From: an uncultured Methylopila sp.
GTDB taxonomy: Bacteria > Pseudomonadota > Alphaproteobacteria > Rhizobiales > Methylopilaceae
Direction: 5' to 3'
NCBI GenBank assembly: GCA_902168115.1
Contig: CABHPB010000042.1
Coordinates: 1-64,000 of the forward strand
DNA length: 64,000 nt
The translations under genes and the position numbers were made by a program. The notes below the pieces were generated by a model. The model did no database searches, was not told where the DNA came from, and was given only the letters and a program-made list of their open reading frames with translations. Shown here in pieces: positions 7,353-20,685 of the stretch (the first letter of the stretch is position 1; every line of letters starts with the position of its first letter).

Positions 7353-8342
7353 CTAGAACAGCAACGATTTCGAGATCGACGCGCCGAGCGTGTATTTCGG
7401 GTCGACCATATTGCCGACGCGGAGTTTTCCGGCCTGCGTCAGCAGCATGTAGGCCTCAAGCTCGTCATAGCCGTAGTCGGCCGCCATCCAGCGCACGAGT
7501 TCGCGATAGGCGATGCGGGCGGCGTCCTCCATCGGGCGGCCCGAGCCGATCGTCATGATCGCGCCCTCGGTTTCCAGCCGCGGCCAGCGGAACGTCCAGC
7601 TCTTGATCAGGTCGATCTGCACGGTGGTGACCGTCGGGTGCTCGATCGCGAAGCCGCAGAGCTCGCCGTCGCCCTGCGTCGCGTGGCAGTCGCCGAGATA
7701 GAGCAGCCCACCGGGCGCATGCACCGGAAGGTAGATCACCGCGCCGGGCCCGACGTCCGGCAGGTCCATGTTGCCGCCGTAGTAGTCCGGGACGAGCGAG
7801 GAGATCGCCTCGATCTCGGGCGAGGTCCCGATGGTCCCGATGAAGGGCTGGTAGGGCAGCGAGATCCGGTCGTTCCAGACCACGCCCTTCTCGGGCGTCA
7901 CCTCGAGCTTCTTGACGATCTCGGGCAGCGGCGGGTTGAGCAGCGCTGTGTCGCCGGTGCCGACCAGGCCGCCGAACTCCGGCATGATGCAGGTGGTGCC
8001 GACCGGCTGCGGTCCGCGCGGCACGATATTCTGGATGTAGACGGCGAGGCAGTCGCCCTTCTTGGCGCCGTTGACGAAGATTGGGCCGTTCTGCGGGTTA
8101 AGGAACGGGAAGTTCAGGATCGCGCTCGGGCTGTCGGTTTCGTGTCTGATCTGGCCTTCCATCGCGTCGTGCGTCTCGGCCGAGACCACCGCGCCGGGAT
8201 CGACCCGCAGGATCGGTTCGGCGTAGGGGCCGTACACGTAGTGGTACTTGCCTTGGCTTTCCTCGGTGATCGCGAAGGACTTCCCCGGCCGCCCCTTCGC
8301 TTCGCCGCGCTTGGCCATGATCGAGTTTTCGAGCCAACTCAT
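7353..8342 (-). CDS. Acetamidase/formamidase family protein
   Basis: Hydrolyses a short aliphatic amide to ammonia and the acid. The 329-residue protein matches the FmdA/AmdA family (ETHDAMEGQI near residue 58, GDCHATQGDGELCGFAIE near residue 220). A strong RBS AGGAG lies 10 bases ahead of the ATG. It is third in line after amiC and amiR, 122 bases below amiR, so it is probably expressed from the AmiR-controlled transcript. Next to a nitrile hydratase it would finish the route nitrile, amide, acid plus ammonia. Confidence 0.92.
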   Translation of the reverse strand: MSWLENSIMAKRGEAKGRPGKSFAITEESQGKYHYVYGPYAEPILRVDPGAVVSAETHDAMEGQIRHETDSPSAILNFPFLNPQNGPIFVNGAKKGDCLAVYIQNIVPRGPQPVGTTCIMPEFGGLVGTGDTALLNPPLPEIVKKLEVTPEKGVVWNDRISLPYQPFIGTIGTSPEIEAISSLVPDYYGGNMDLPDVGPGAVIYLPVHAPGGLLYLGDCHATQGDGELCGFAIEHPTVTTVQIDLIKSWTFRWPRLETEGAIMTIGSGRPMEDAARIAYRELVRWMAADYGYDELEAYMLLTQAGKLRVGNMVDPKYTLGASISKSLLF

Positions 8343-8464: not shown

Positions 8465-9112
8465 TCAGCGTCGGGCGAGCGTGAGCTCGACGGGCGCGTC
8501 CTGGGAAGCTCCGGTCGGCTCTGACCGGCAGGCGAGTTGCTGTTCGCAATAGTCCTCGAGGCTGAGGCGGCTGCGCATGCTGTCGCGGCGCAGGATCGCG
8601 TAGGCCTCGTCGTCGTCGACGGAATGCTGCTCCATGATCCGCACGATGGTCTTGATCACCAGCCTGCGCCTGCGCCGCCGGTCCTGATGCTCGCTGAGCT
8701 GATCGGCGAGCGACTTGCGCTGCAGGTACTGGTTCACGCCGAGGAACAGCGTGGTGTAGACGGCGCCCGCATAGACGGGCTTGCGCAGGAAGGCGGTCGC
8801 GCCCTGCGCCATCAGCCCCTTCAGGCGGCTCGGCGCCTCGACGCCGACGAGGCCGATGACGGGCGCGGGCGGCAGGCCGTTGACGATCGCCCCGCCGCCG
8901 AGGACGCCCTCGAGGTCGCCGTCGACGAATAGCACGTCGCGCTCAAAGCTGAATGCACAGGCGTCGACCACGGCGGGCGCGGAGACGCCCGCGCGCTCGA
9001 CGGCGAGGCCGAGCTTGACGAGCACCGAGGCCAGCGTGTCCACGCCGCCGTCCCCGGAGGCGAAGATCACCGCCCGCATGCCTCGGAAGTTCTGGATGGG
9101 CGCCTGGGACAT
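8465..9112 (-). CDS. amiR: AmiR-like antitermination regulator with ANTAR RNA-binding domain
   Basis: 215-residue AmiR homologue. Residues 10-125 form a receiver-like domain without the phospho-acceptor pattern (AVIFASGDGGVDTL, FLRKPVYAGAV), a coiled-coil linker follows, and residues 145-205 are an ANTAR domain (IVRIMEQHSVDDDEAYAILR, then LEDYCEQQLA). In Pseudomonas aeruginosa, AmiR is held inactive by AmiC and released by amides to bind leader RNA and prevent termination. Its ATG overlaps the amiC stop as ATGA, fitting a tightly matched AmiC-AmiR ratio. Hairpins and terminators suited to it lie in both divergent leaders (10281-10628). Confidence 0.9.
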   Translation of the reverse strand: MSQAPIQNFRGMRAVIFASGDGGVDTLASVLVKLGLAVERAGVSAPAVVDACAFSFERDVLFVDGDLEGVLGGGAIVNGLPPAPVIGLVGVEAPSRLKGLMAQGATAFLRKPVYAGAVYTTLFLGVNQYLQRKSLADQLSEHQDRRRRRRLVIKTIVRIMEQHSVDDDEAYAILRRDSMRSRLSLEDYCEQQLACRSEPTGASQDAPVELTLARR

Positions 9113-10266
9113 CAGCTCACCACCCGAAGCCGCGACGCCGGAGACCCCCAGGAGTCCGTCGCGGAGAAACGGACGAGGTACGGATCGGGACGGATCGCGG
9201 AAGGCTCCTGGCGGATCACCTCGAAGGTGGCGTCGTCGCGGGAACGTCCGATCCGTGGCGTGAGGTAGAGGTGCATGGTCTCGGCGTCGACGAGAACCTC
9301 GCCCTGCGGCGCGGCGAGGCGCTGGTTCGCGAGCGCCGACCGCACCGCGCCGATCTCGTCGCTGCGCGCCTCCGCCATGGCCGCCGCGAGAAGCTTGACC
9401 GCGACATAGGAGGCCTCGGCGTCCGCGGAGGCCCAGGGCTTGTCGGGATAGGCCGCCGCGTAGGCCGACACGAAGGCGCGGCTTTCGTCTGTCTGCAGCG
9501 ACGAGAAATAGACGCTGGAGCTGATGTGCCCGTCCATCGCGCCATCCCCGATGTCGACGAGGTCGGGCTCGTTGAGGTTGCAGCTCGCGATCGGCATGAC
9601 GGCCGGCTGGTCGATGCCGCGGGCGACGCAGGCCTCGCGCAGCCGCCGGATGAACGAATACCCGCTGACGCCGATCAGCGAGGAGAACACGAAGTTCGGC
9701 TGCGCCGCGAGGATCGCGTCGATCGTCCTGCCGAAATCCGTCTCGCCGACGGGCAGGTACCGCTCGGCGAGCACCGATCCGCCCCGTGCGACGACGACCT
9801 CCCGCAGGATCCGGTTGTTCTCCCAGGCCCAGATGTAGTTTGAGCCCACGCAGAACGCGCGGTCGCCATAGGACGACATCAGGAAGTCGATCAGCGGCAG
9901 GATGTGCTGGTTTGGCGCGGCGCCGGTGTAGACGACGTTGTCGGAGCTCTCGAAACCTTCGTAATGCGAGGGGTACCACAGCATACCGTCATGCTTCTCG
10001 AAGGCCGGGATCACCTCCTTGCGGCTCGAGGAGGTGTAGCAGCCGACGACCTGACGGATGCCGGACGACAGCAGCTGGGAACTCAGCGCCGAGTAGCGCG
10101 ACAGGTCGCCCCCGGGGTTCACGACCTCGGGGTCGAGCGTGACCTGGCCGGCCGCGTTGATCTCGGAGATCGCAAGCAACGCGCCGTTGAGCATGGGCCC
10201 GGCGACCGAGCTGTACGGCCCGGTCGACGAGAACATCAGTCCGATGCGGAAGCCATCTGTCGTCAT
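9112..10266 (-). CDS. amiC: AmiC-like amide-sensing binding protein
   Basis: 384-residue periplasmic-binding-fold protein without a signal peptide, so a cytoplasmic sensor like AmiC (385 residues) rather than a transporter subunit. It begins MTTDGFRIGLMFSSTGPYSS and has GCYTSSSRKEVIPAFEKHDGMLWYP and PAVMPIASCNLNEPDL. The open frame continues upstream, but 10266 fits the family N-terminus. An intrinsic terminator ends 14 bases before this start, so translation depends on read-through. It is the first gene of the amiC-amiR-acetamidase unit. Confidence 0.9.
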   Translation of the reverse strand: MTTDGFRIGLMFSSTGPYSSVAGPMLNGALLAISEINAAGQVTLDPEVVNPGGDLSRYSALSSQLLSSGIRQVVGCYTSSSRKEVIPAFEKHDGMLWYPSHYEGFESSDNVVYTGAAPNQHILPLIDFLMSSYGDRAFCVGSNYIWAWENNRILREVVVARGGSVLAERYLPVGETDFGRTIDAILAAQPNFVFSSLIGVSGYSFIRRLREACVARGIDQPAVMPIASCNLNEPDLVDIGDGAMDGHISSSVYFSSLQTDESRAFVSAYAAAYPDKPWASADAEASYVAVKLLAAAMAEARSDEIGAVRSALANQRLAAPQGEVLVDAETMHLYLTPRIGRSRDDATFEVIRQEPSAIRPDPYLVRFSATDSWGSPASRLRVVS

Positions 10267-10280
10267 CGGGTCGCCGAACG

Positions 10281-10312
10281 AAAAAAGCCCTCGAGCCGTG
10301 AGGCTTGAGGGC
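10281..10312 (-). terminator. Leader terminator upstream of amiC
   Basis: On the minus strand an 11-base-pair stem with one mismatch (GCCCTCAAGCC against GGCTCGAGGGC, loop TCAC) is followed by six T. It lies 14 bases before the amiC start, so it ends transcription before the operon unless an antiterminator acts. Confidence 0.88.
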
Positions 10313-10321
10313 GTCGCTGCC
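10310..10321 (-). promoter_or_regulatory. Candidate ANTAR hairpin P2 in the amiC leader
   Basis: Minus strand GGC-AGCGAC-GCC: a three-pair stem with a six-base loop having A at position 1 and G at position 4, as in known ANTAR targets. Its right arm GCC (10310-10312) is also the first three bases of the terminator stem, so the two structures exclude each other. Confidence 0.6.
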
Positions 10322-10374
10322 GGGCGCGTCCAATGTCCGCGCCATGATATGCATCGAAATTCTGACGCTCGATT

Positions 10375-10388
10375 GGGCATCTTTGCCC
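10375..10388 (-). promoter_or_regulatory. Candidate ANTAR hairpin P1 in the amiC leader
   Basis: Minus strand GGGC-AAAGAT-GCCC: four pairs and a six-base loop with A1 and G4. It lies 53 bases upstream of P2, longer than most described linkers, and a further hairpin (GGCGCG/CGCGCC, around 10323-10344) lies in between. Confidence 0.5.
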
Positions 10389-10425
10389 CGCGCCTATGTC
10401 TTAGGCTCCATCCCCGCGCACCGCT

Positions 10426-10478
10426 TGTCAAGCGAAGATCGGCGATCTTCGAGCTATGGCGCGAGTAAAAATCGCGCT
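10426..10478. promoter_or_regulatory. Divergent promoter region of amiC and the nitrile hydratase operon, with inverted repeats
   Basis: The centre of the divergent gap holds a minus-strand TTGACA (10426-10431), a perfect inverted repeat CGAAGATC-ggc-GATCTTCG (10433-10451) and another, GCGCGA-N7-TCGCGC (10459-10477). A direct repeat AATTGTGCT occurs at 10492-10500 and 10509-10517. These may be -35 elements and operators; no convincing -10 was found, so promoter positions are uncertain. Confidence 0.4.
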
Positions 10479-10541
10479 TCAGTCGGTCAAAAATTGTGCT
10501 TGACTGTCAATTGTGCTGGCTTCACTCTCTCGCCAAGCGTC

Positions 10542-10555
10542 GGGCGAAGCTGCCC
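10542..10555 (+). promoter_or_regulatory. Candidate ANTAR hairpin P1 in the nitrile hydratase leader
   Basis: GGGC-GAAGCT-GCCC: the same four-pair stem as P1 in the amiC leader, with a six-base loop having G at position 4 but G rather than A at position 1. A second possible stem (TCGCC/GGCGA, 10529-10546) overlaps it. Confidence 0.45.
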
Positions 10556-10589
10556 ATGTAGACGCAAGTCACTCAGATCACAGGAATTC

Positions 10590-10601
10590 GGCACAGTCGC
10601 C
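10590..10601 (+). promoter_or_regulatory. Candidate ANTAR hairpin P2 in the nitrile hydratase leader
   Basis: GGC-ACAGTC-GCC: three pairs, hexaloop with A1 and G4. Its right arm (10599-10601) is the first three bases of the following terminator, the same overlap as in the divergent amiC leader. Confidence 0.6.
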
Positions 10602-10628
10602 CGCAGCAAGTTGCTGACGGGCTTTTTT
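10599..10628 (+). terminator. Leader terminator upstream of the nitrile hydratase operon
   Basis: GCCCG pairs with CGGGC around an inner AGCAA/TTGCT stem with one bulged A, followed by six T (10623-10628). No gene precedes it on this strand, and nitrile hydratase begins 149 bases later, so it is an attenuator-type leader terminator. Confidence 0.85.
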
Positions 10629-10776: not shown

Positions 10777-11451
10777 GTGAAGGTCCAACATTATCTCGGA
10801 GGCATCGAGAACCTCGGTCCCGTCGACGTCGAGAAGCGCGTGTTCGTCGAGCCGTGGGAGGCGCAGCTCTTCGCCGTCCACACGACGATGATGGGCACCG
10901 GCATCTGGGCGTGGCCGGACCTACGCGTCCTCGCCGAGTCCATGAACCCGCTCGATTACTTCAAGTACCGCTATTACATCAAATGGCTCGGCGGCATGTG
11001 CAAGTTCCTGATCTCCAGGAACTACATCTCCGAGAAGGAGCTCGAGGCCAAGACCAGGTATTACCTCGAGAACCCGGACGCCGCCCAGCCCAACGCCGGG
11101 AACAACGACGTCACCGAGCGGGTCATCGAGTATTTCTACACCGGCGCGAACCCCTATCGCGACGTTGCGGTGAACCCGATCTTCAAGGTCGGCGACACGG
11201 TTCGCGTGAAGGACATGCCGCCCGTGGTCCACACACGCCTCCCCGGCTACCTGCGCAACCGCATCGGCGTCGTCGAGACCGTCTACAAGGGCGCCTATCT
11301 CTACGCCGACAACGTGCCGACCGACGGCATCTGCACCGCGCAGCCCGTCTATCTCGTGAAGTTCAAGACGCGCGACCTCTGGGACGACATCCCGGACAAG
11401 GGCGACGTTCTCTACAACGACTGCTTCGAGGTCTACCTCGAGGCGGCGTGA
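10777..11451 (+). CDS. nthB: Nitrile hydratase beta subunit
   Basis: Beta subunit of the heterodimer that hydrates nitriles to amides. 224 residues from the GTG at 10777, preceded by a GGAGG site at 7 bases; the frame is open upstream but the family N-terminus begins here (HYLGGIENLGPV). Both halves of a normal beta subunit are present, the helical N-terminal part and the C-terminal barrel (FKVGDTVRVKDMPPVVHTRLPGYLRNRIG). The beta-alpha-accessory order is typical of cobalt enzymes. Thiocyanate hydrolase was considered, but its beta-like chain is split in two genes. Confidence 0.9.
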   Translation: MKVQHYLGGIENLGPVDVEKRVFVEPWEAQLFAVHTTMMGTGIWAWPDLRVLAESMNPLDYFKYRYYIKWLGGMCKFLISRNYISEKELEAKTRYYLENPDAAQPNAGNNDVTERVIEYFYTGANPYRDVAVNPIFKVGDTVRVKDMPPVVHTRLPGYLRNRIGVVETVYKGAYLYADNVPTDGICTAQPVYLVKFKTRDLWDDIPDKGDVLYNDCFEVYLEAA

Positions 11452-11515: not shown

Positions 11516-12136
11516 ATGAGCGACGATCACGACCACGACCACCATCACCACCTGCGCGAGAGCGAGACCTATTACGCCGCGCGCACCAAGGCGCTGGAGT
11601 CCCTGTTCCGCGAGAAGGGCCTCATCGGCACCGACACGGTCGACCGCGTCATCAACTTCTTCGAGCACGAGATGGGGCCGTTCAACGGCGCCAAGGTGGT
11701 GGCCAAGGCCTGGACCGACCCGGCCTTCAAGGGGCGGCTGCTCGCCGACGCCAACAAGGCGATCGCGGAGCTCGGCATGCGCGACGGCATCGAGGGCGAG
11801 AACCTCAAGGTCGTCGAGAACGTCCCCGGCACCCACAACGTCGTCTGCTGCACGCTGTGCTCGTGCTGGCCGTGGCCGCTGCTCGGCCTGCCGCCCTACT
11901 GGTTCAAGGATCCGGTGTTCCGCGCCCGCGTGGTGCGCGAGCCGCGCGGTGTGCTGTCGGACTTCGGCGTGACGCTGCCGGAGGAGTCCAAGATCGAGAT
12001 CTGGGATTCGAGCGCGCAGGTCCGCTACTTCGTGATCCCCGAACGTCCCGCCGGCACCGACGGCTGGACCGAGGAGAAGCTCGCCGCGCTCGTCTCCACC
12101 GAGGCCATGCAGGGCCTCGGCCTGGCGACGGCCTGA
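11516..12136 (+). CDS. nthA: Nitrile hydratase alpha subunit, cobalt type, with His-rich N-terminus
   Basis: Metal-binding catalytic subunit of 206 residues. The claw motif C112-T-L-C115-S-C117 is intact, with Thr in the position typical of non-corrin cobalt enzymes, and is followed by WPWPLLGLPPYW. An extra Cys111 directly precedes the motif. The N-terminus starts MSDDHDHDHHHHL: six His and four Asp in the first 12 residues, not a usual part of the family and a possible metal-loading tail. Followed 14 bases later by its accessory gene and then by cobalt-transport genes. Confidence 0.95.
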   Translation: MSDDHDHDHHHHLRESETYYAARTKALESLFREKGLIGTDTVDRVINFFEHEMGPFNGAKVVAKAWTDPAFKGRLLADANKAIAELGMRDGIEGENLKVVENVPGTHNVVCCTLCSCWPWPLLGLPPYWFKDPVFRARVVREPRGVLSDFGVTLPEESKIEIWDSSAQVRYFVIPERPAGTDGWTEEKLAALVSTEAMQGLGLATA

Positions 12137-12150
12137 CGGAGGGAGAGGCG

Positions 12151-12489
12151 ATGGACGCCTATGTCGACGACCTCACCGGCCGCGAGGCCATCCCGCGGAA
12201 CTGCGAGAGCCTGAAGTTCGACGAGCCCTGGCAGGGCCGCGCCTTCGGCATGGTGCTCGCCCTCGCGGAGGCGAAGTCCTACCCCTACGAGGACTTCCGC
12301 AAGAGCCTGATCAGCACCATCGGCGAGTGGGACAAGACCCACGAGCCGGGCGACGAGACCTGGAGCTACTACGAACAGTGGCTCGCGGCCTTCGAGAAGC
12401 TCGCGCTGGCGAAGGGACTGGTCACTCCCGAGGAGCTTGACCAGCGCACGGAAGAGTTCCTGCACCGCACCCGCGACGAGGTCATCTGA
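12151..12489 (+). CDS. Nitrile hydratase accessory protein (P14K/activator-like)
   Basis: 112-residue protein related to the N-terminal helical region of the nitrile hydratase beta subunit (FDEPWQGRAFGMVLALAE, then EDFRKSLISTIGEW and YYEQWLAAFEKL). In cobalt nitrile hydratases such small proteins bind the alpha subunit and carry out its self-subunit-swapping maturation and cobalt loading. A purine-rich RBS (GGAGGGAGAGG) ends 2 bases before the ATG. Placement straight after the alpha gene supports the role. Confidence 0.88.
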   Translation: MDAYVDDLTGREAIPRNCESLKFDEPWQGRAFGMVLALAEAKSYPYEDFRKSLISTIGEWDKTHEPGDETWSYYEQWLAAFEKLALAKGLVTPEELDQRTEEFLHRTRDEVI

Positions 12490-12591: not shown

Positions 12592-13113
12592 ATGATCATC
12601 CCTCTCGCAATCAGCGTGGGCCTGCTCGGGGGCGTGTGCACCTGGCTGTTCCTCGCGACCAACGCCTTCCTGATCTGGGCGGCGTTCGTCGCCTGGGCCT
12701 GCTTCTACCACTCGGGCGGAGAAGCTGCGGCGTTCCGGACGACCATCGTGTCGAACCTGTTCGGCGTCGCGGTCGCCTGGGCCGCGGGGCTGGCGCTCGC
12801 AACGATCGCTCCGGGCCCCGTGCTCGGCGCGACGATCGTCGCGGCGTCGATCGCGATCTACATCCTGGCGGCCTACATCCCCGCCTTCTCGTCGATCCCG
12901 GCCGTCACCTACGGCTACGCCTGCACCTTCGCGTTCCTGACGCAGAACGCGGACGCCTTCACGCCCGCCGTCATGCTGTCGGCCTCCGGCCGCAACGCGC
13001 TGCTGCTCGTCCCGCTCTCGATGATCATCGGCGCCTGCTTCGCCTTCGCCTCGGCGAAGTTCGCGGCCTGGATCCATGGGCTCTCGCCGAAGCAGTCCGT
13101 CAGCGCCTCCTGA
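12592..13113 (+). CDS. DUF1097 family membrane protein
   Basis: 173-residue integral membrane protein with about five hydrophobic segments. It matches the DUF1097 family in size and pattern (GGVCTWLFLATNAFLIWAAFVAWACFYHSGG). The family has no proven function. Its position between the nitrile hydratase accessory gene and cbtB suggests a role in metal or substrate uptake, but that rests on context only. Confidence 0.75.
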   Translation: MIIPLAISVGLLGGVCTWLFLATNAFLIWAAFVAWACFYHSGGEAAAFRTTIVSNLFGVAVAWAAGLALATIAPGPVLGATIVAASIAIYILAAYIPAFSSIPAVTYGYACTFAFLTQNADAFTPAVMLSASGRNALLLVPLSMIIGACFAFASAKFAAWIHGLSPKQSVSAS

Positions 13114-13178
13114 GCCGCGCCTTCCGCCGCGCGGCCTCCGCGCGGCGTCTCCTCAACCGGTCGAACTGGGAGTTCCCG

Positions 13179-13400
13179 ATGACCAACGCCGCATACGTCA
13201 CCACCGCGCCGACCACGGCGCGCGCCGAGCCGATCCCGGTCTCGGCGATCCTGCCCTGGGCCGCCTTCGGCGGCCTGATGCTCCTCCTCACCGTCTATTT
13301 CGTCGGGGCTGAGGAAGGCGCGACCTCGCTGATCGGAGGCTCCTTCGTGCACGAATTCGTGCATGACGGCCGCCACCTGCTCGGCTTCCCCTGCCACTGA
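13179..13400 (+). CDS. cbtB: CbtB, small subunit of a putative cobalt transporter
   Basis: 73-residue protein with one membrane helix (residues 23-44) and a His-containing C-terminus (HEFVHDGRHLLGFPCH), the hallmark of CbtB. CbtAB are predicted cobalt importers, often found under B12 riboswitches; no riboswitch is seen here, and the genes instead follow a cobalt nitrile hydratase. Eleven bases ahead of cbtA. Confidence 0.9.
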   Translation: MTNAAYVTTAPTTARAEPIPVSAILPWAAFGGLMLLLTVYFVGAEEGATSLIGGSFVHEFVHDGRHLLGFPCH

Positions 13401-13411
13401 CGGAGAGCGAG

Positions 13412-14170
13412 ATGGTCGGCAACCTGCTGTTGAGGGGCATGATGGTCGGCGTGCTCGCCGGCCTTCTCGCCTTCTGCTTCGCCAAGGTCTTCGGCGAGCC
13501 TTACGTCGACTACGCGATCGCCTTCGAGGAGCACGCCAGCCACGCCGCGGGCGCGGCCGGCGCTCCGGAAAAGCCCGAGATCGTCAGCCGCGCCACGCAG
13601 GCCGGCGTCGGCCTGTTCGCCGGGCTCGCGATCTACGGCGCGGCGGTCGGCGGCCTGTTCGCGCTCGCATTCGCCTTCGCGAACGGCCGGCTCGGCCGCA
13701 TGGGACCGCGCTCGGTCGCGGCGCTGATCGCGACGCTCGGCTTCGTCGCGGTCGTCCTGGTCCCGCAGCTCAAATACCCGGCCAATCCGCCGGCCGTCGG
13801 CAGCGCCGACACGATCATGGCGCGGACCGAGCTATTCTTCGCCATGCTGACCTTCTCGGTCGTGCTGATGATCGCGGCCGTGATGCTCGCGCGCCGCTTC
13901 GCGGGACGGCTCGGCGACTGGAACGCCGCCACGGCCGCGGGCCTCGTCTATCTCGGCGTCGTCGCGGTAATGTTCGCGGCCCTGCCCGACATCGAGGAGA
14001 TCCCGGCCTCGTTCTCGCCGGTGGCGCTCTGGAACTTCAGGATCGCCTCGATCGGCGTGCAGGCCGTGCTCTGGTCGTCGGTGGGCCTCCTGTTCGGCGC
14101 CGTCGCCGAATACGCGGCCCGGACCAGCGACGCGTCGCGTCATCCGTCCGGCGCGGCGGCGTTCCGGTGA
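13412..14170 (+). CDS. cbtA: CbtA, integral membrane subunit of a putative cobalt transporter
   Basis: 252-residue CbtA family protein with about six membrane helices. It starts MVGNLLLRGMMVGVLAGLLAFCFAKVFGEPYVDYAIAFEE and has a short loop containing His (EEHASHAAG) typical of the family. It probably supplies cobalt for the nitrile hydratase made upstream in the same direction. Its stop overlaps the GTG of the next gene (GTGA), indicating translational coupling. Confidence 0.9.
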   Translation: MVGNLLLRGMMVGVLAGLLAFCFAKVFGEPYVDYAIAFEEHASHAAGAAGAPEKPEIVSRATQAGVGLFAGLAIYGAAVGGLFALAFAFANGRLGRMGPRSVAALIATLGFVAVVLVPQLKYPANPPAVGSADTIMARTELFFAMLTFSVVLMIAAVMLARRFAGRLGDWNAATAAGLVYLGVVAVMFAALPDIEEIPASFSPVALWNFRIASIGVQAVLWSSVGLLFGAVAEYAARTSDASRHPSGAAAFR

Positions 14171-16755: not shown

Positions 16756-18150
16756 ATGGCAGCCCAAGCAGCCGCCGTGGCGGAAGGCGACACCGATCGC
16801 CACGCCAAAAGGGCCGTGATCGCCTCGACGATCGGCACCATGATCGAATGGTACGACTTCTATCTCTACGGCCTCGCGGCCGCACTGGTCTTCGGCAAAC
16901 TCTACTTCCCGGCCAACGACCCCTATTCGGCGACGCTGCTGTCGTTCTCGACCATGTTCGTCGGCTTCGTGGCGCGCCCGCTTGGCGCGCTGCTGTTCGG
17001 CCACTGGGGCGACCGCATCGGCCGCAAGACGACGCTCGTCGTCACGCTGCTGCTCATGGGCGTCAGCACCGTCGCGATCGGCCTGCTGCCGACCTATGAG
17101 ACCATCGGCATCTGGGGCGCGGTCGGCCTTGTGGTACTGCGCGTGTTGCAGGGCATCGGCGTCGGCGGCGAGTGGGGCGGCGCGGTCGCGGTCGCGACCG
17201 AGTGGTCCAAGTTCAACAAAAGCCGCGGCCTCGCCGCCAGCTGGCCGCAGTTCGGCTCGCCGCTCGGCATGCTGATGGCGGTCGGCGCGCTGACCCTGAC
17301 GGCCAAGTTCGGCGACGCCGCCTGGTTCGAGAGCTTCGGCTGGCGCATCCCGTTCCTCATCAGCGCCGTGCTGATCGCGGTCGGCCTCTACATCCGGCTC
17401 GGCGTTCTCGAGACGCCGGTGTTCCAGAAGATGCAGAAGGAGAACAAGCTCGCCCAGGCGCCCGTGATGGACGCGGTGCGCGGGTACTGGAGGCAGATCC
17501 TCCTCACCTGCCTGATCCGCACCGGCCAGCAGGCGCCCTTCGTGATCTTCACGACGTTCCTTCTGTCATACGGCACCAAGCAGCTCGGCTTCGACCGGCA
17601 GTTCCTGTTCAACTGCGTGCTCGTCGCCTGCGTGGTCTCGCTGTTCGCCAATCCGTTCTTCGGCTGGGCGTCGGACAAGATCGGCCGCAAGCGGATGTAT
17701 GTGATCGGCGCCGCCACGATGCTCGCCTTCGCGTTCCCCTACTTCTGGATGCTCGACAGCAAGATCCCGGCGCTGGTGGTCTTCGCGATCGTGATCTCGA
17801 TCCCGATCCACGACATGCAGTGGGCCCCGCTCGCGGCGTTCACCACGGAGAGCTTCCCGCCGAACGTGCGCTATTCGGGCTCGTCGATCGGCTACCACCT
17901 CGCCTCGCTGACCTCGGGCGGGCCGGCGCCGCTGATCTGCGCCTACCTGCTGCACACCTACGGCACATCTTCGGCGCTCAGCATCTACATCGCGGTGATC
18001 GCGGCCATCAGCCTCGTATCGGCGATGATGCTGAAGGATCGCTCAAAAACCGACTACGCGACCAACGAAGGCTGGGATCGAGCGGACGACTCGGCGTCCG
18101 TGACCGCTCCCACCGTCTCGGCAGCAGTGCGTCCCGGCACGGCGGTCTGA
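16756..18150 (+). CDS. MFS transporter, metabolite:proton symporter (MHS) type
   Basis: 464-residue, 12-helix permease. The signatures TIGTMIEWYDFYLYG near residue 27, GDRIGRKTTLV and GIGVGGEWGGAVAVATEW place it in the metabolite:H+ symporter group that imports organic acids such as shikimate, alpha-ketoglutarate or aromatic acids. AGGAGG lies 5 bases ahead of the chosen ATG. It is read divergently from its LysR regulator and precedes the oxygenase gene. Confidence 0.93.
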   Translation: MAAQAAAVAEGDTDRHAKRAVIASTIGTMIEWYDFYLYGLAAALVFGKLYFPANDPYSATLLSFSTMFVGFVARPLGALLFGHWGDRIGRKTTLVVTLLLMGVSTVAIGLLPTYETIGIWGAVGLVVLRVLQGIGVGGEWGGAVAVATEWSKFNKSRGLAASWPQFGSPLGMLMAVGALTLTAKFGDAAWFESFGWRIPFLISAVLIAVGLYIRLGVLETPVFQKMQKENKLAQAPVMDAVRGYWRQILLTCLIRTGQQAPFVIFTTFLLSYGTKQLGFDRQFLFNCVLVACVVSLFANPFFGWASDKIGRKRMYVIGAATMLAFAFPYFWMLDSKIPALVVFAIVISIPIHDMQWAPLAAFTTESFPPNVRYSGSSIGYHLASLTSGGPAPLICAYLLHTYGTSSALSIYIAVIAAISLVSAMMLKDRSKTDYATNEGWDRADDSASVTAPTVSAAVRPGTAV

Positions 18151-18232
18151 GAGGTCGCGTCAGGTTGACGGTCGGCGGCCCCCTCGCCGACCGTCAACGC
18201 CCTGGCCCCGCATCGATTTTCTCGAATAGAGC

Positions 18233-18261
18233 CGATCGAAAACTCTCGTTTTCAATCGAAA
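18233..18261. promoter_or_regulatory. Operator copy 2 (upstream of the LLM oxygenase)
   Basis: 29 bases identical to copy 3 at 20057-20085, ending 79 bases before the oxygenase start. Internal inverted repeat GAAAAC-TCTC-GTTTTC. Confidence 0.75.
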
Positions 18262-18340
18262 AATCCGACGCTTAGGCTGTTCGCACGCCTTGGCCGACCG
18301 GAAAGCGCTGCAGCTTTCGAGCGCGCGCATGGAGGACAGC

Positions 18341-19486
18341 ATGACCAACACACTCTCGCCGCTCGAGGCGGCCCTGCAGCAGCCGATGATGCTGGGCCTG
18401 TTCCTGCCGATCCAGCAGGGCGCCTGGAGCCCCTCGCTCGCCCCGCGCTCGACCGACTGGACCTTCGAATACAACGCCAGGTGCACCGTCATGGCCGAGA
18501 GGCTCGGCTTTGACCTGGTGTTCGGCCTCGCCCAGTGGATGGGCAAGGGCGGCTACGGCGGCGAGATGAGGTTCCGCGAGAACGCCACCGACCCGCTGCT
18601 CGTGACCGCGGGCCTCGCGGCCATCACCAAGCGCATCCTGCTCGTCTCCACGGTGCACATCCTGTACGGCTGGCACCCGCTCCACCTCGCCAAGTTCGGC
18701 GCCACCATCTCGGAGATGAGCGGCGGCCGCTGGGGCCTCAACATGGTCACCGGCTACAAGAAGAGCGAGTTCGAGATGTTCGGCCTCGAGCAGATCGAGC
18801 ACGATCATCGCTACGTCATGGCGGACGAGTTCGTGACTATGATGAAGCGGCTCTGGTCGGAGGACGAGAACCTTACGCATCACGGCCAGTTCTACAAGAT
18901 GAACGACGCCTTCATCGCCCCGAAGCCCGCGGGCGGGAAGTGCATCCTGGTCAACGCATCGTCCTCGGGCGCAGGTCTCGCCTACGCGGTCAAGCATTCG
19001 GATTTGATCTTCGTGACGAGCCCCGCCGGCGCCAATCTCGACAGGGCCTGCGAGGCGCTGCCCGCCCACACGGCCAAGATCAAGACGGCCGCCAGTGAGA
19101 TGGGTCGGAACGTCAGGATCCTGCTCAACCCGCACGTCATCTGCCGGGAGACCGAAGAAGAGGCCTGGGCGCAGTATCATTCGATCCTGAAGAACGCCGA
19201 CCCGGTCGCGGCCCAGAACTTCTACCAGACCTTCACGGGCGGCGATCAGGCTTCCTGGCGCGGGGCCACTAAGGACGACTGGACGGTGGGCGGCAACGTC
19301 CACATCGTCGGCACGCCCGAGCAGGTGGTCGAGGGCTTCAGGCGGCTGCAGGCCGCCGGCATCGATGGCGTCCAGGTCAACTTCTACGACTTCATCCCCG
19401 ACCTGACCTTCTTCGGCGAGCGCGTGCTGCCGCTGATGCGCGAGGCGGGACTCCGGCTCGACACGCCGATGGCGGCCGCGGCCTGA
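18341..19486 (+). CDS. LLM class flavin-dependent monooxygenase (RutA/SfnG-like)
   Basis: 381-residue TIM-barrel oxygenase using reduced FMN from a partner reductase. MTNTLSPL at 18341 is preceded by GGAGGA at 4 bases. Motifs shared with RutA and SfnG: FNYN-type N-terminus, SGGRWGLNMVTGYKKSEFEMFG, DHRYVMADEF, a C-terminus with FFGERVLPLM. RutA opens the uracil ring and SfnG oxidises dimethylsulfone; sequence alone does not decide, and neither rutB-G nor other sfn genes are present. The flavin reductase gene follows 5 bases downstream. Confidence 0.88.
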   Translation: MTNTLSPLEAALQQPMMLGLFLPIQQGAWSPSLAPRSTDWTFEYNARCTVMAERLGFDLVFGLAQWMGKGGYGGEMRFRENATDPLLVTAGLAAITKRILLVSTVHILYGWHPLHLAKFGATISEMSGGRWGLNMVTGYKKSEFEMFGLEQIEHDHRYVMADEFVTMMKRLWSEDENLTHHGQFYKMNDAFIAPKPAGGKCILVNASSSGAGLAYAVKHSDLIFVTSPAGANLDRACEALPAHTAKIKTAASEMGRNVRILLNPHVICRETEEEAWAQYHSILKNADPVAAQNFYQTFTGGDQASWRGATKDDWTVGGNVHIVGTPEQVVEGFRRLQAAGIDGVQVNFYDFIPDLTFFGERVLPLMREAGLRLDTPMAAAA

Positions 19487-19491
19487 CCGTC

Positions 19492-20025
19492 ATGGACGCG
19501 CAGGTTTCCGCCGGGGCGCGCGCTCCGGCGGCGGAAGAAGCGGCGATCGACGCGTCGGAGTTTCGCAGCTTCGCCGGCCATTTCGCCACCGGCGTGGCGG
19601 TCGTGACCGCCAGGGGCGCGGCCGGCGATCTCTCGGGCGTCACCATCAACGCCGTGACGTCGCTGTCGCTCGATCCGCCGCTTTATCTCGTCTGCCTCGA
19701 CAACAGCTCCAACACGCTCGGCCTGTTGCGCGAGACCCGGGCCTTCGCGCTGCATTTCCTAGCCAGGGACCAGGCCGCGATTTCGCGCCTGTTCGCGTCC
19801 AAGCGGCCGGACAAGTTCTCCGGGATCATTTACGCGATCGGCGAGACCGGAAGCCCGATCATCGATGGCGTGCTCGCCGCGGCCGAGTGCGTCGTGACTG
19901 AGCTCACCGCCATGGGCGACCACACGATCGTCATCGGCGAGGTCCGCTCGACCCGCGTCAACGGCGGCGAACCGCTGCTGTATCACCGCGGCGCCTATGC
20001 GGTCCTCGACAGCGCTCCGGATTGA
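19492..20025 (+). CDS. Flavin reductase family protein (first of two tandem paralogues)
   Basis: 177-residue FMN reductase that supplies FMNH2 to the oxygenase just upstream. It has the family motifs FATGVAVVTARGAAGDLSGVTINAVTSLSLDPPL and GDHTIVIGEV plus a C-terminal YHRGAY. Close to the paralogue at 20188 over its whole length, indicating a tandem duplication; its N-terminus is about 11 residues longer. Confidence 0.92.
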   Translation: MDAQVSAGARAPAAEEAAIDASEFRSFAGHFATGVAVVTARGAAGDLSGVTINAVTSLSLDPPLYLVCLDNSSNTLGLLRETRAFALHFLARDQAAISRLFASKRPDKFSGIIYAIGETGSPIIDGVLAAAECVVTELTAMGDHTIVIGEVRSTRVNGGEPLLYHRGAYAVLDSAPD

Positions 20026-20056
20026 CCGCGACGACATCGAGTTTGTCGAACAAAAA

Positions 20057-20085
20057 CGATCGAAAACTCTCGTTTTCAATCGAAA
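20057..20085. promoter_or_regulatory. Operator copy 3 (upstream of the second flavin reductase operon)
   Basis: Exact 29-base match to the copy at 18233-18261, ending 102 bases before the next start. Its presence shows that the second reductase and the following catabolic genes have their own promoter in the same regulon. Confidence 0.75.
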
Positions 20086-20187
20086 TCATCGTCGAATAAC
20101 GTTTCTACGAACCGAGATCGAGCCTCAACAAATCGATCCGCAAGAGCGCCCAGCTCCATGGGCGCATCGTCTAGGAGGAGCTCTCGC

Positions 20188-20681
20188 ATGTCCGCCTCGG
20201 CCATCACGTCGACCGATCTTCGAAGCTTCGCGGGGCAATTCGCGACCGGCGTCGCCGTCGTGACGACGCGGAGCGCGGAGGGCGAGCTCGCCGGCGTGAC
20301 GATCAATGCGGTGACGTCGCTCTCGCTGACGCCGCCGCTGTTCCTGATCTGCCTCGACCACAAGTCGAACACGCTCGGCGCGTTGCTCTCGAGCGGCAAG
20401 TTCGCGATCCATTTCCTCGCCAAGGGACAGACCGGCGTCTCCAAGATCTTCGCCTCGAAGAGCGCGGACAAGTTCGCCGAGGTCGACCATTCGGCGGGCG
20501 AGAACGGCAGCCCGATCATCTCCGGCGTGCTGGCCGCGGCCGAGTGCAGCCTCGCCGAGATGTGCCCGGGCGGCGACCACACGATCATCATCGGTCAGGT
20601 CGAGAAGGTGCACATCCACGGCGGCGAGCCGCTGCTGTATCATCGCGGAGCCTATGCGGCGCTCGACGAGAGGGTCGCGGC

Positions 20682-20685
<4 letters not shown>
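20188..20685 (+). CDS. Flavin reductase family protein (second tandem paralogue)
   Basis: 165-residue paralogue of the gene at 19492, with FATGVAVVTTRSAEGELAGVTINAVTSLSLTPPLFLICLD and GDHTIIIGQVEKVHIHGGEPLLYHRGAY. The ATG at 20188 follows AGGAGGAG at 7 bases. Its stop overlaps the GTG of the CoA transferase gene, so it heads a coupled operon (reductase, CoA transferase, enoyl-CoA hydratase, DMT transporter). It may serve a second oxygenase outside this unit. Confidence 0.92.

Follow-up and report, generated by a model that had tools for sequence, protein, structure and literature searches.

Paired ANTAR-type leaders before divergent amidase and nitrile hydratase operons in an uncultured Methylopila

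Two divergent operons and their leaders

The window (the whole stretch analysed, 64,000 nucleotides from an uncultured Methylopila sp., contig CABHPB010000042.1) carries two divergent operons, the amide side on the minus strand and the nitrile hydratase side on the plus. Their genes are the following; numbers of the form L031 denote related loci in other genomes.

7353..8342, minus: amidase of the acetamidase/formamidase family (FmdA_AmdA; Pfam 117.2 bits, cut-off 27)
8465..9112, minus: amiR, encoding an ANTAR-domain protein, immediately 3' of amiC (Pfam ANTAR 39.5 bits, cut-off 27.3)
9112..10266, minus: amiC, the putative amide-sensing partner (Pfam Peripla_BP_5; homologue of the solved AmiC)
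10777..11451, plus: nitrile hydratase beta subunit, GTG start (NCBIfam equivalog, above cut-off)
11516..12136, plus: nitrile hydratase alpha subunit, with a CTLCSC motif (NCBIfam, above cut-off)
12133..12489, plus: nitrile hydratase accessory protein (NCBIfam nitrile_acc, above cut-off)
12592..13113, plus: DUF1097 protein (Pfam), retained in the nitrile hydratase operon by neighbourhood comparison
13167..14170, plus: two small genes, retained in L031-L035, the first weakly CbtB-like (20.9 bits, cut-off 64.4)

The amiC product matches PDB 1PEA/1QO0 at E 2.5e-65 over 368 residues, and sensing of short amides would follow from this homology. The match of the amiR product to the AmiR chain of 1QO0 (chain D) is weaker (E 9e-4), and the Pfam AmiR_N model does not match it at E 0.001; the Pfam ANTAR score bears out the original prediction that amiR encodes an ANTAR protein. 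As judged by homology, then, an AmiC-like sensor adjoins an AmiR-related ANTAR protein, as in an AmiC-AmiR pair. The amidase scores 63.8 bits with the NCBIfam formamidase model, far under its cut-off of 500. The CTLCSC motif is one we take to be the cobalt-type signature of nitrile hydratase alpha subunits; the second of the two small genes has no NCBIfam match and is CbtA-like by position only. Elsewhere in the window, at 16756-20685, genes for an MFS transporter, a luciferase-like monooxygenase and two flavin-reductase-like proteins stand in a row, perhaps a separate pathway for a nitrogen or sulfur compound.

Each operon is preceded by a leader. That of amiC comprises:

10403..10431, minus: promoter-like pair upstream of the leader, TTGACA (10431-10426), 17 nt, GAGCCT (10408-10403)
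10364..10394, minus: P0, outer helix around P1, GGCGC/GCGTC, with a 6-nt 3' bulge AATCGA
10388-10375, minus: P1 mini-hairpin, GGGC-AAAGAT-GCCC, with A1 and G4 in the loop
10323..10343, minus: P1.5, spacer hairpin, GGCGCG-9-CGCGCC, stopping 1 nt before P2
10321-10310, minus: P2 mini-hairpin, GGC-AGCGAC-GCC, with A1 and G4 in the loop
10281..10312, minus: intrinsic terminator before amiC (10312-10287), with T6 at 10286-10281

That of the nitrile hydratase operon comprises:

10500..10528, plus: promoter-like pair upstream of the leader, TTGACT (10500-10505), 17 nt, CACTCT (10523-10528)
10537-10541 with 10561-10565, plus: P0, outer helix around P1, GCGTC/GACGC, with a 5-nt 3'-side bulge ATGTA
10542-10555, plus: P1 mini-hairpin, GGGC-GAAGCT-GCCC, with G at loop position 1
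10590-10601, plus: P2 mini-hairpin, GGC-ACAGTC-GCC, whose right arm (10599-10601) opens the terminator
10599..10628, plus: intrinsic terminator before the nitrile hydratase operon, GCCCGCAGCAAGTTGCTGACGGGC at 10599-10622 with T6 at 10623-10628

Both leaders are built like dual-hexaloop ANTAR elements: each has two mini-hairpins of at least three pairs with hexanucleotide loops. The original prediction had described P1, P2 and a P2 right arm that doubles as the opening three bases of a T6 terminator, and a letter-by-letter check found all of these in both leaders; it had overlooked the P0 helix, the problem of the spacer and a second ANTAR protein, taken up below. Its one reservation, the G that opens the plus P1 loop, is also correct: the plus P2 loop (ACAGTC) has A1 and G4, and the P1 loop (GAAGCT) has G4 and departs from A1 by that single base. 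The orthologous family of nitrile hydratase leaders fits the pattern, and in the nearest relative, L031, the matching loop is AAAGCT. Fold prediction of the plus P0-P1 region returns the structure as drawn, except for one extra pair closing the P1 loop (z -2.5). P1.5 of the amiC leader is called likely rather than shown: an equally good hairpin arises in 0.03 of shuffles of the window's spacer, and just 13 of 79 amiC leaders reach 0.05 or less.

When a composite is defined as an A..G.. hexaloop closed by at least three Watson-Crick pairs, with a right arm that opens a terminator, searching the 64 kb on either strand finds exactly two, the two leaders; shuffled sequence gives a mean of 0.27 per two-strand scan (30 shuffles). 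Rfam 15 has no match in the window at gathering scores, and at a lax threshold has three only, at chance level and none of them relevant; RF01725, considered as an ANTAR family, was ruled out, being SAM-I-IV. Scanning for consensus promoters and simple terminators missed both promoters and both leader terminators, the single match of the simple terminator scan lying elsewhere. A strict terminator detector picked out 2 of 70 other amiC loci; elements were recognised in many more once their leaders were read.

Conservation, covariation and distribution of the leaders

Relatives of AmiC were collected by a short-pattern scan of genome contigs from 84,980 species, and the best 80 of 145 were kept. 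Among these best 80, the divergent arrangement occurs at ten loci (L031-L040); with the window and L165 this makes 12 distinct loci, five of which recur, by leader sequence, as L002-L006 and three as L162-L164. All 12 have the layout amiC-amiR-amidase opposite nitrile hydratase, each leader carrying P1 and P2, and all 12 retain TTGACA at the minus promoter-like site and TTGAC at the plus one, the -10 of the latter being weak. By record name the hosts belong to Chelatococcaceae, Methylopilaceae, Xanthobacteraceae, Kaistiaceae, Azospirillaceae and a Beijerinckiaceae metagenome bin; the number of host families is taken as five, because genome grouping places the twin of L031 (G215) in the window's own genus.

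Nitrile hydratase leaders were aligned from 11 of the 12 loci (without L165), an alignment that also gave the covariance model R1, and amiC leaders from ten (without L037 and L165). In the nitrile hydratase set, 96.7% of P0, P1 and P2 cells are paired, against at most 62.5% for slid versions, and five cells are changed on both sides; none of 500 shuffles reaches either figure. Counted as pairs, the two-sided changes come to two, one in P0 and one in P1, a number matched by 143 of 500 shuffles. The P0 change is U-A to C-G in two rows and the P1 change G-C to A-U in three of ten distinct rows; the outermost P0 pair is unpaired in four of the ten. In the amiC set 93.0% of cells are paired with P1.5 included (P1.5 itself 79%), and P0 and P1 are fully paired wherever letters are present, L039 being gapped in P0. 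Six amiC pairs are changed on both sides, three of them in P0 and P1, a total equalled in 4 of 500 shuffles. The covariation looked for in related genomes is thus present for P1, and for P0 as well, in both leaders; it is absent for P2, whose pairs vary in neither alignment (11 nitrile hydratase leaders, 10 amiC leaders). The case for P2 therefore rests on its conservation and its overlap with the terminator, which has the right orientation; among the 11 aligned loci, L039 lacks a T-run in its nitrile hydratase leader.

In a wider list of 81 amiC leaders, with 61 distinct P0-P1 modules, both P0 pairs adjoining P1 occur in all four Watson-Crick combinations, and a C:G pair closes the P1 loop in 60 of the 61. 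This list illustrates more than it proves, because the search that made it rewards pairing and A1/G4. Nearly any sequence will yield a hairpin in such a P1 search, and its pick in L046 is plainly wrong; scores of 14 or more are reached by 54% of real leaders and 0.2% of shuffles.

The loops themselves are nearly fixed at positions 1 and 4. Because the loop and spacer patterns used for the 12 loci favour A1 and G4, counts are taken from the alignments. In nitrile hydratase leaders P1 has A1 in 9 of 11 (G in the window and L040) and G4 in all 11, and P2 has both in all 11; the remaining loop positions vary. All ten amiC leaders have A1 and G4 in P1, where positions 2 (A) and 6 (T) are equally fixed, and their P2 has A1 in nine (G in L036) and G4 in nine (T in L040); within the 12 loci, amiC P2 loops open with G in L036, L037 and L165. 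A C:G pair closes each loop in every row of both alignments. The earlier proposal that loop positions 1 and 4 are the ones read agrees with this near-fixation in all four loops, and with literature on other systems: PMC3369931 and PMC7496416 describe these positions as important for EutV and preferred by NasR, and in PMC7496416 NasR SELEX preferred a C:G loop-closing pair.

A departure is seen in Bradyrhizobium and Rhodopseudomonas. In the 170 nt before amiC of L041-L050 and others of these genera, P0, the P1 stem and the terminator are retained; P1 loops often lack G4, and P2 is often GGC-GAGGGC-GCC, with the A and G one step inward or in a tetraloop. The specificity of AmiR may have shifted at these loci.

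The two leaders of the window resemble each other closely enough for a model of one kind to find the other. Run on the 4.1-Mb genome, R1, built from nitrile hydratase leaders only, ranks the plus leader first (114.8 bits, as a training sequence) and the amiC leader second (26.1 bits, E 0.002); the third match has 17.9 bits (E 0.28), and at R1's sensitivity the genome holds no third element. R1 was also applied to 55 sources, namely 48 of the 81 amiC leaders, L115 and L116-L121. It matched 45 of the 48 with E no higher than 0.02, and L051, L106 and L100 more weakly; the L115 leader and the five loci L117-L121, which have a nitrile hydratase and no amiC, gave nothing even at E 1. At least 22 of 397 genomes of the order contain a match with E no higher than 0.005. 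At least ten of the order's matches exceed 36 bits, six before nitrile hydratase and four before amiC; around the 12 below 33 bits, no protein queried from the window turned up within about 1.5 kb, and these appear to be chance matches. These order-wide counts are lower bounds, because stricter filters omitted even the window's amiC leader.

In its distribution the element follows amiC-amiR. Some nitrile hydratase beta subunit is encoded by 178 of the 397 genomes, and this type, at 65% identity or more, by seven; six of the seven have the divergent amiC and the element, the seventh being L115. The element is absent from five less closely related nitrile hydratase loci, whose examined stretches lack amiC. 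In the class at large, 1 of 385 genomes has this type at E 1e-70, namely the window's. At E 1e-60 it occurs in 5 of 18 genomes of the window's family; in two other families the figures are 4 of 391 (that of G077) and 1 of 28 (that of G293, G293 itself). The 82 plasmid records with a nitrile hydratase match are all below 60% identity.

A maximum-likelihood tree was built from 47 chosen AmiC rows, comprising 40 of the 80 loci, the window and six more. Its 11 divergent, nitrile hydratase-linked rows form one clade (support 100/99), which cuts across host families: Azospirillum stands by Kaistia, and one Ancylobacter among Methylopilaceae. Such a clade fits a travelling cassette, and transfer would account for it. 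The link between nitrile hydratase and AmiC needs two changes, because L115 falls elsewhere on a long branch. At L115 (7900-14400, another family) the genes form a colinear operon, nitrile hydratase-DUF1097-amiC-amiR-amidase-accessory; its leader has P2 and a terminator and no recognisable P1, and its AmiR, unlike the window's, matches Pfam AmiR_N. It is apparently a separate linking of nitrile hydratase to AmiC-AmiR.

Other partners of amiC-amiR were met in passing. In a distant member of the phylum (L196, 3927-9100) the pair follows a tandem carbon-nitrogen hydrolase gene (nitrilase superfamily) and a gene for a cytosine/purine-type permease; the T8 terminator ahead of the permease contains hexaloop-like hairpins. 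In Mesorhizobium sp. Root102 (L100, 939-4631, minus) amiC-amiR-amidase is divergent from a family-3 solute-binding ABC transporter and an arginase-family gene, with a weak R1 match near the transporter start (19.6 bits, E 0.015).

Spacer length and a second ANTAR protein

The spacer between P1 and P2 is long: 34 nt in the plus leader of the window and 53 nt in the minus. Nitrile hydratase spacers are 32-34 nt in 11 of the 12 loci (54 in L040) and amiC spacers 43-54 nt in 11 of 12 (85 in L040); in the wider set, 79 of 81 amiC leaders have 30-85 nt, the other two lacking the P2 pattern. By the dual-hexaloop definition of PMC3369931 a spacer of variable length joins the hairpins, and both window leaders fit it. 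The same paper and PMC8934654 put spacers of EutV targets at 5-12 nt and report that 14 nt or a 20-nt insertion spoils them; a spacer of that EutV type is found in neither window leader. The EutV spacing rule suggested a P1 nearer to P2: none could be found by eye in either leader, and conservation favours the P1 reported here. Many amiC leaders have a hairpin 1 nt before P2, of the kind not seen in the window's nitrile hydratase leader; folded, a spacer hairpin may shorten the path from P1 to P2.

The genome encodes one further ANTAR protein, beside two NMT1_2 proteins. We read it as NasT-like and these neighbours as NasS- and NrtA-like, names that none of the curated models gives to proteins of this locus. 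Two NasT-like leaders of the same genome (L116:3465-3580, minus, and G000:C82:183978-184117) have 4-nt spacers, one lying before the NMT1_2 (NrtA-like) gene and the other about 3.5 kb further on. Across the genus the stems of such leaders are GCCC/GGGC and CAGC/GCTG, and in 9 of 15 loci 2-4 nt separate them; of the remaining loci one was mis-parsed and five were unparsed. Two spacer classes therefore coexist in one cell, long in amiC and nitrile hydratase leaders and 2-4 nt in NasT-like ones.

The long-spacer architecture is unusual. Our tentative suggestion, put forward with rather more doubt than confidence, is that AmiR-class leaders of alphaproteobacteria are a separate architecture, with P1 on a bulged P0 and at least 30 nt from P2, that spacing and stem sequences would allow the two ANTAR proteins to read separate RNAs, and that a travelling cassette employed the long-spacer switch to bring nitrile hydratase under amide-sensor control.

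Proposed control, its rivals and its relatives

The anatomy of the leaders, their conservation, the covariation of P0 and P1 and the co-occurrence with amiC-amiR are observed directly; the last two lend support to the original proposal that RNA control of the AmiR type reaches the divergent nitrile hydratase operon. Read from sequence, AmiC-AmiR very probably serves as an amide sensor that, by RNA antitermination, opens both transcripts, with AmiR binding, the amide signal and read-through as its predicted steps. That is, both transcripts would begin at constitutive-looking promoters and stop by default at the leader terminators; AmiC would retain AmiR until a short amide is bound; a freed AmiR dimer would grip the P1 and P2 hexaloops of each leader, P1 being presented at the tip of a longer hairpin (P0 with its one-sided bulge) and distant in sequence from P2. 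The terminator could then not be completed, because a stabilised P2 uses the first three bases of its 5' arm, and transcription would continue into amiC-amiR-amidase one way and into nitrile hydratase and its accessory genes the other. Because nitrile hydratase makes an amide, a pathway intermediate would induce its own producer together with the amidase that removes it.

Folding agrees with termination as the default state: default folds favour the terminator, the fold with P2 enforced is worse by about 4-5 kcal/mol, and P2 does not form unaided in minimum-energy folds. In a shortened nascent plus RNA (10542-10605) the 5' strand of P1 (GGGC) pairs with the arm shared by P2 and the terminator (GCCC). 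The protein must pay for P1 plus P2, because the terminator is favoured and the P1 strand pairs with the P2 arm; this alternative fold might also serve as a timer ahead of synthesis of the terminator arm.

On another reading the terminators would be no more than attenuators, or insulators separating the divergent promoters, and the mini-hairpins would be by-products of the terminators and of GC-rich sequence. Both terminators are strong, and the preference of plain folding for terminator over P2 is what this account expects; yet P1 and P0 lie outside the terminators and still covary, and all four loops show little change at positions 1 and 4, so that the account is hardly credible. Control by AmiR might also be confined to the amiC operon, the nitrile hydratase leader being a decayed copy and its operon driven otherwise. 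Decay would fit the G that opens the P1 loop in the window and L040, the T-run missing from L039 and the P1 not recognisable in L115. Across the aligned loci, however, nitrile hydratase leaders are kept at least as well as amiC leaders, and the window's plus P2 has both A1 and G4; decay is very improbable.

A different regulator is the remaining concern, given that the genome encodes two ANTAR proteins and the other stands beside NasS- and NrtA-like NMT1_2 proteins: if the NasT-like protein read both leaders, nitrile hydratase would answer to nitrate or nitrite and not to amides. The leaders of that protein differ from those described here, however, in stems and in their short spacers. Their distribution differs as well: NasT-like leader DNA is present in 12 of 13 genomes of the genus, and the nitrile hydratase element in five of these, always alongside this nitrile hydratase. 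Assignment of the leaders to the NasT-like protein is thus very unlikely, and control by AmiC-AmiR is the reading we prefer.

Control of amidases by AmiR is already known, as are ANTAR regulons for nitrogen genes. The nearest likeness is to AmiC-AmiR and amiE of Pseudomonas aeruginosa, with an AmiC homologue, an adjoining ANTAR protein and an amidase target; on the amiE side the leader has, as described in PMC3369931, the same dual hexaloop and terminator overlap. The difference here is a second, divergent nitrile hydratase transcript with its own element, and an amidase of the FmdA_AmdA family. No amiE leader of P. aeruginosa was recognised among the results of an AmiC search over 219 genomes of the phylum. 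Elements read by EutV in Enterococcus faecalis share A1/G4 hexaloops and a P2 that overlaps the terminator; their spacer is 5-12 nt, whereas that of the 12 loci is 32-85 nt, and here P1 sits on an extended bulged hairpin, often with a further hairpin before P2. NasT/NasS leaders, two of which lie in the same genome, share the dual hairpin and terminator overlap and differ in their 2-4 nt spacer and stem sequences.

On the side of the enzyme, the likeness is to the nitrile hydratases of Rhodococcus rhodochrous J1, induced by their own product: amides act there via the AmiC-like NhlC/NhhC, and transcription is the presumed target of a further protein, NhlD/NhhD. We know of no ANTAR leader for these enzymes, and to our knowledge the control of nitrile hydratase, an industrial enzyme, is little described in proteobacteria. 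Among the titles listed from the open-licence literature there was no case of ANTAR or AmiC-AmiR antitermination with nitrile hydratase. The mechanism of antitermination is a known one; nitrile hydratase as its target seems undescribed in the literature so searched, in line with what the original prediction had said of it.

If the proposal is true, several things follow. How ANTAR dimers reach two distant loops becomes testable, because the long spacer breaks the EutV spacing rule; how a cell with two ANTAR proteins separates their targets would become testable as well, and the leaders could serve as amide-inducible expression parts. Nitrile hydratase would join the genes under RNA antitermination, and the two leaders would make a clean system where a single sensor opens both pathway steps, from nitrile to amide and from amide to acid and ammonia.
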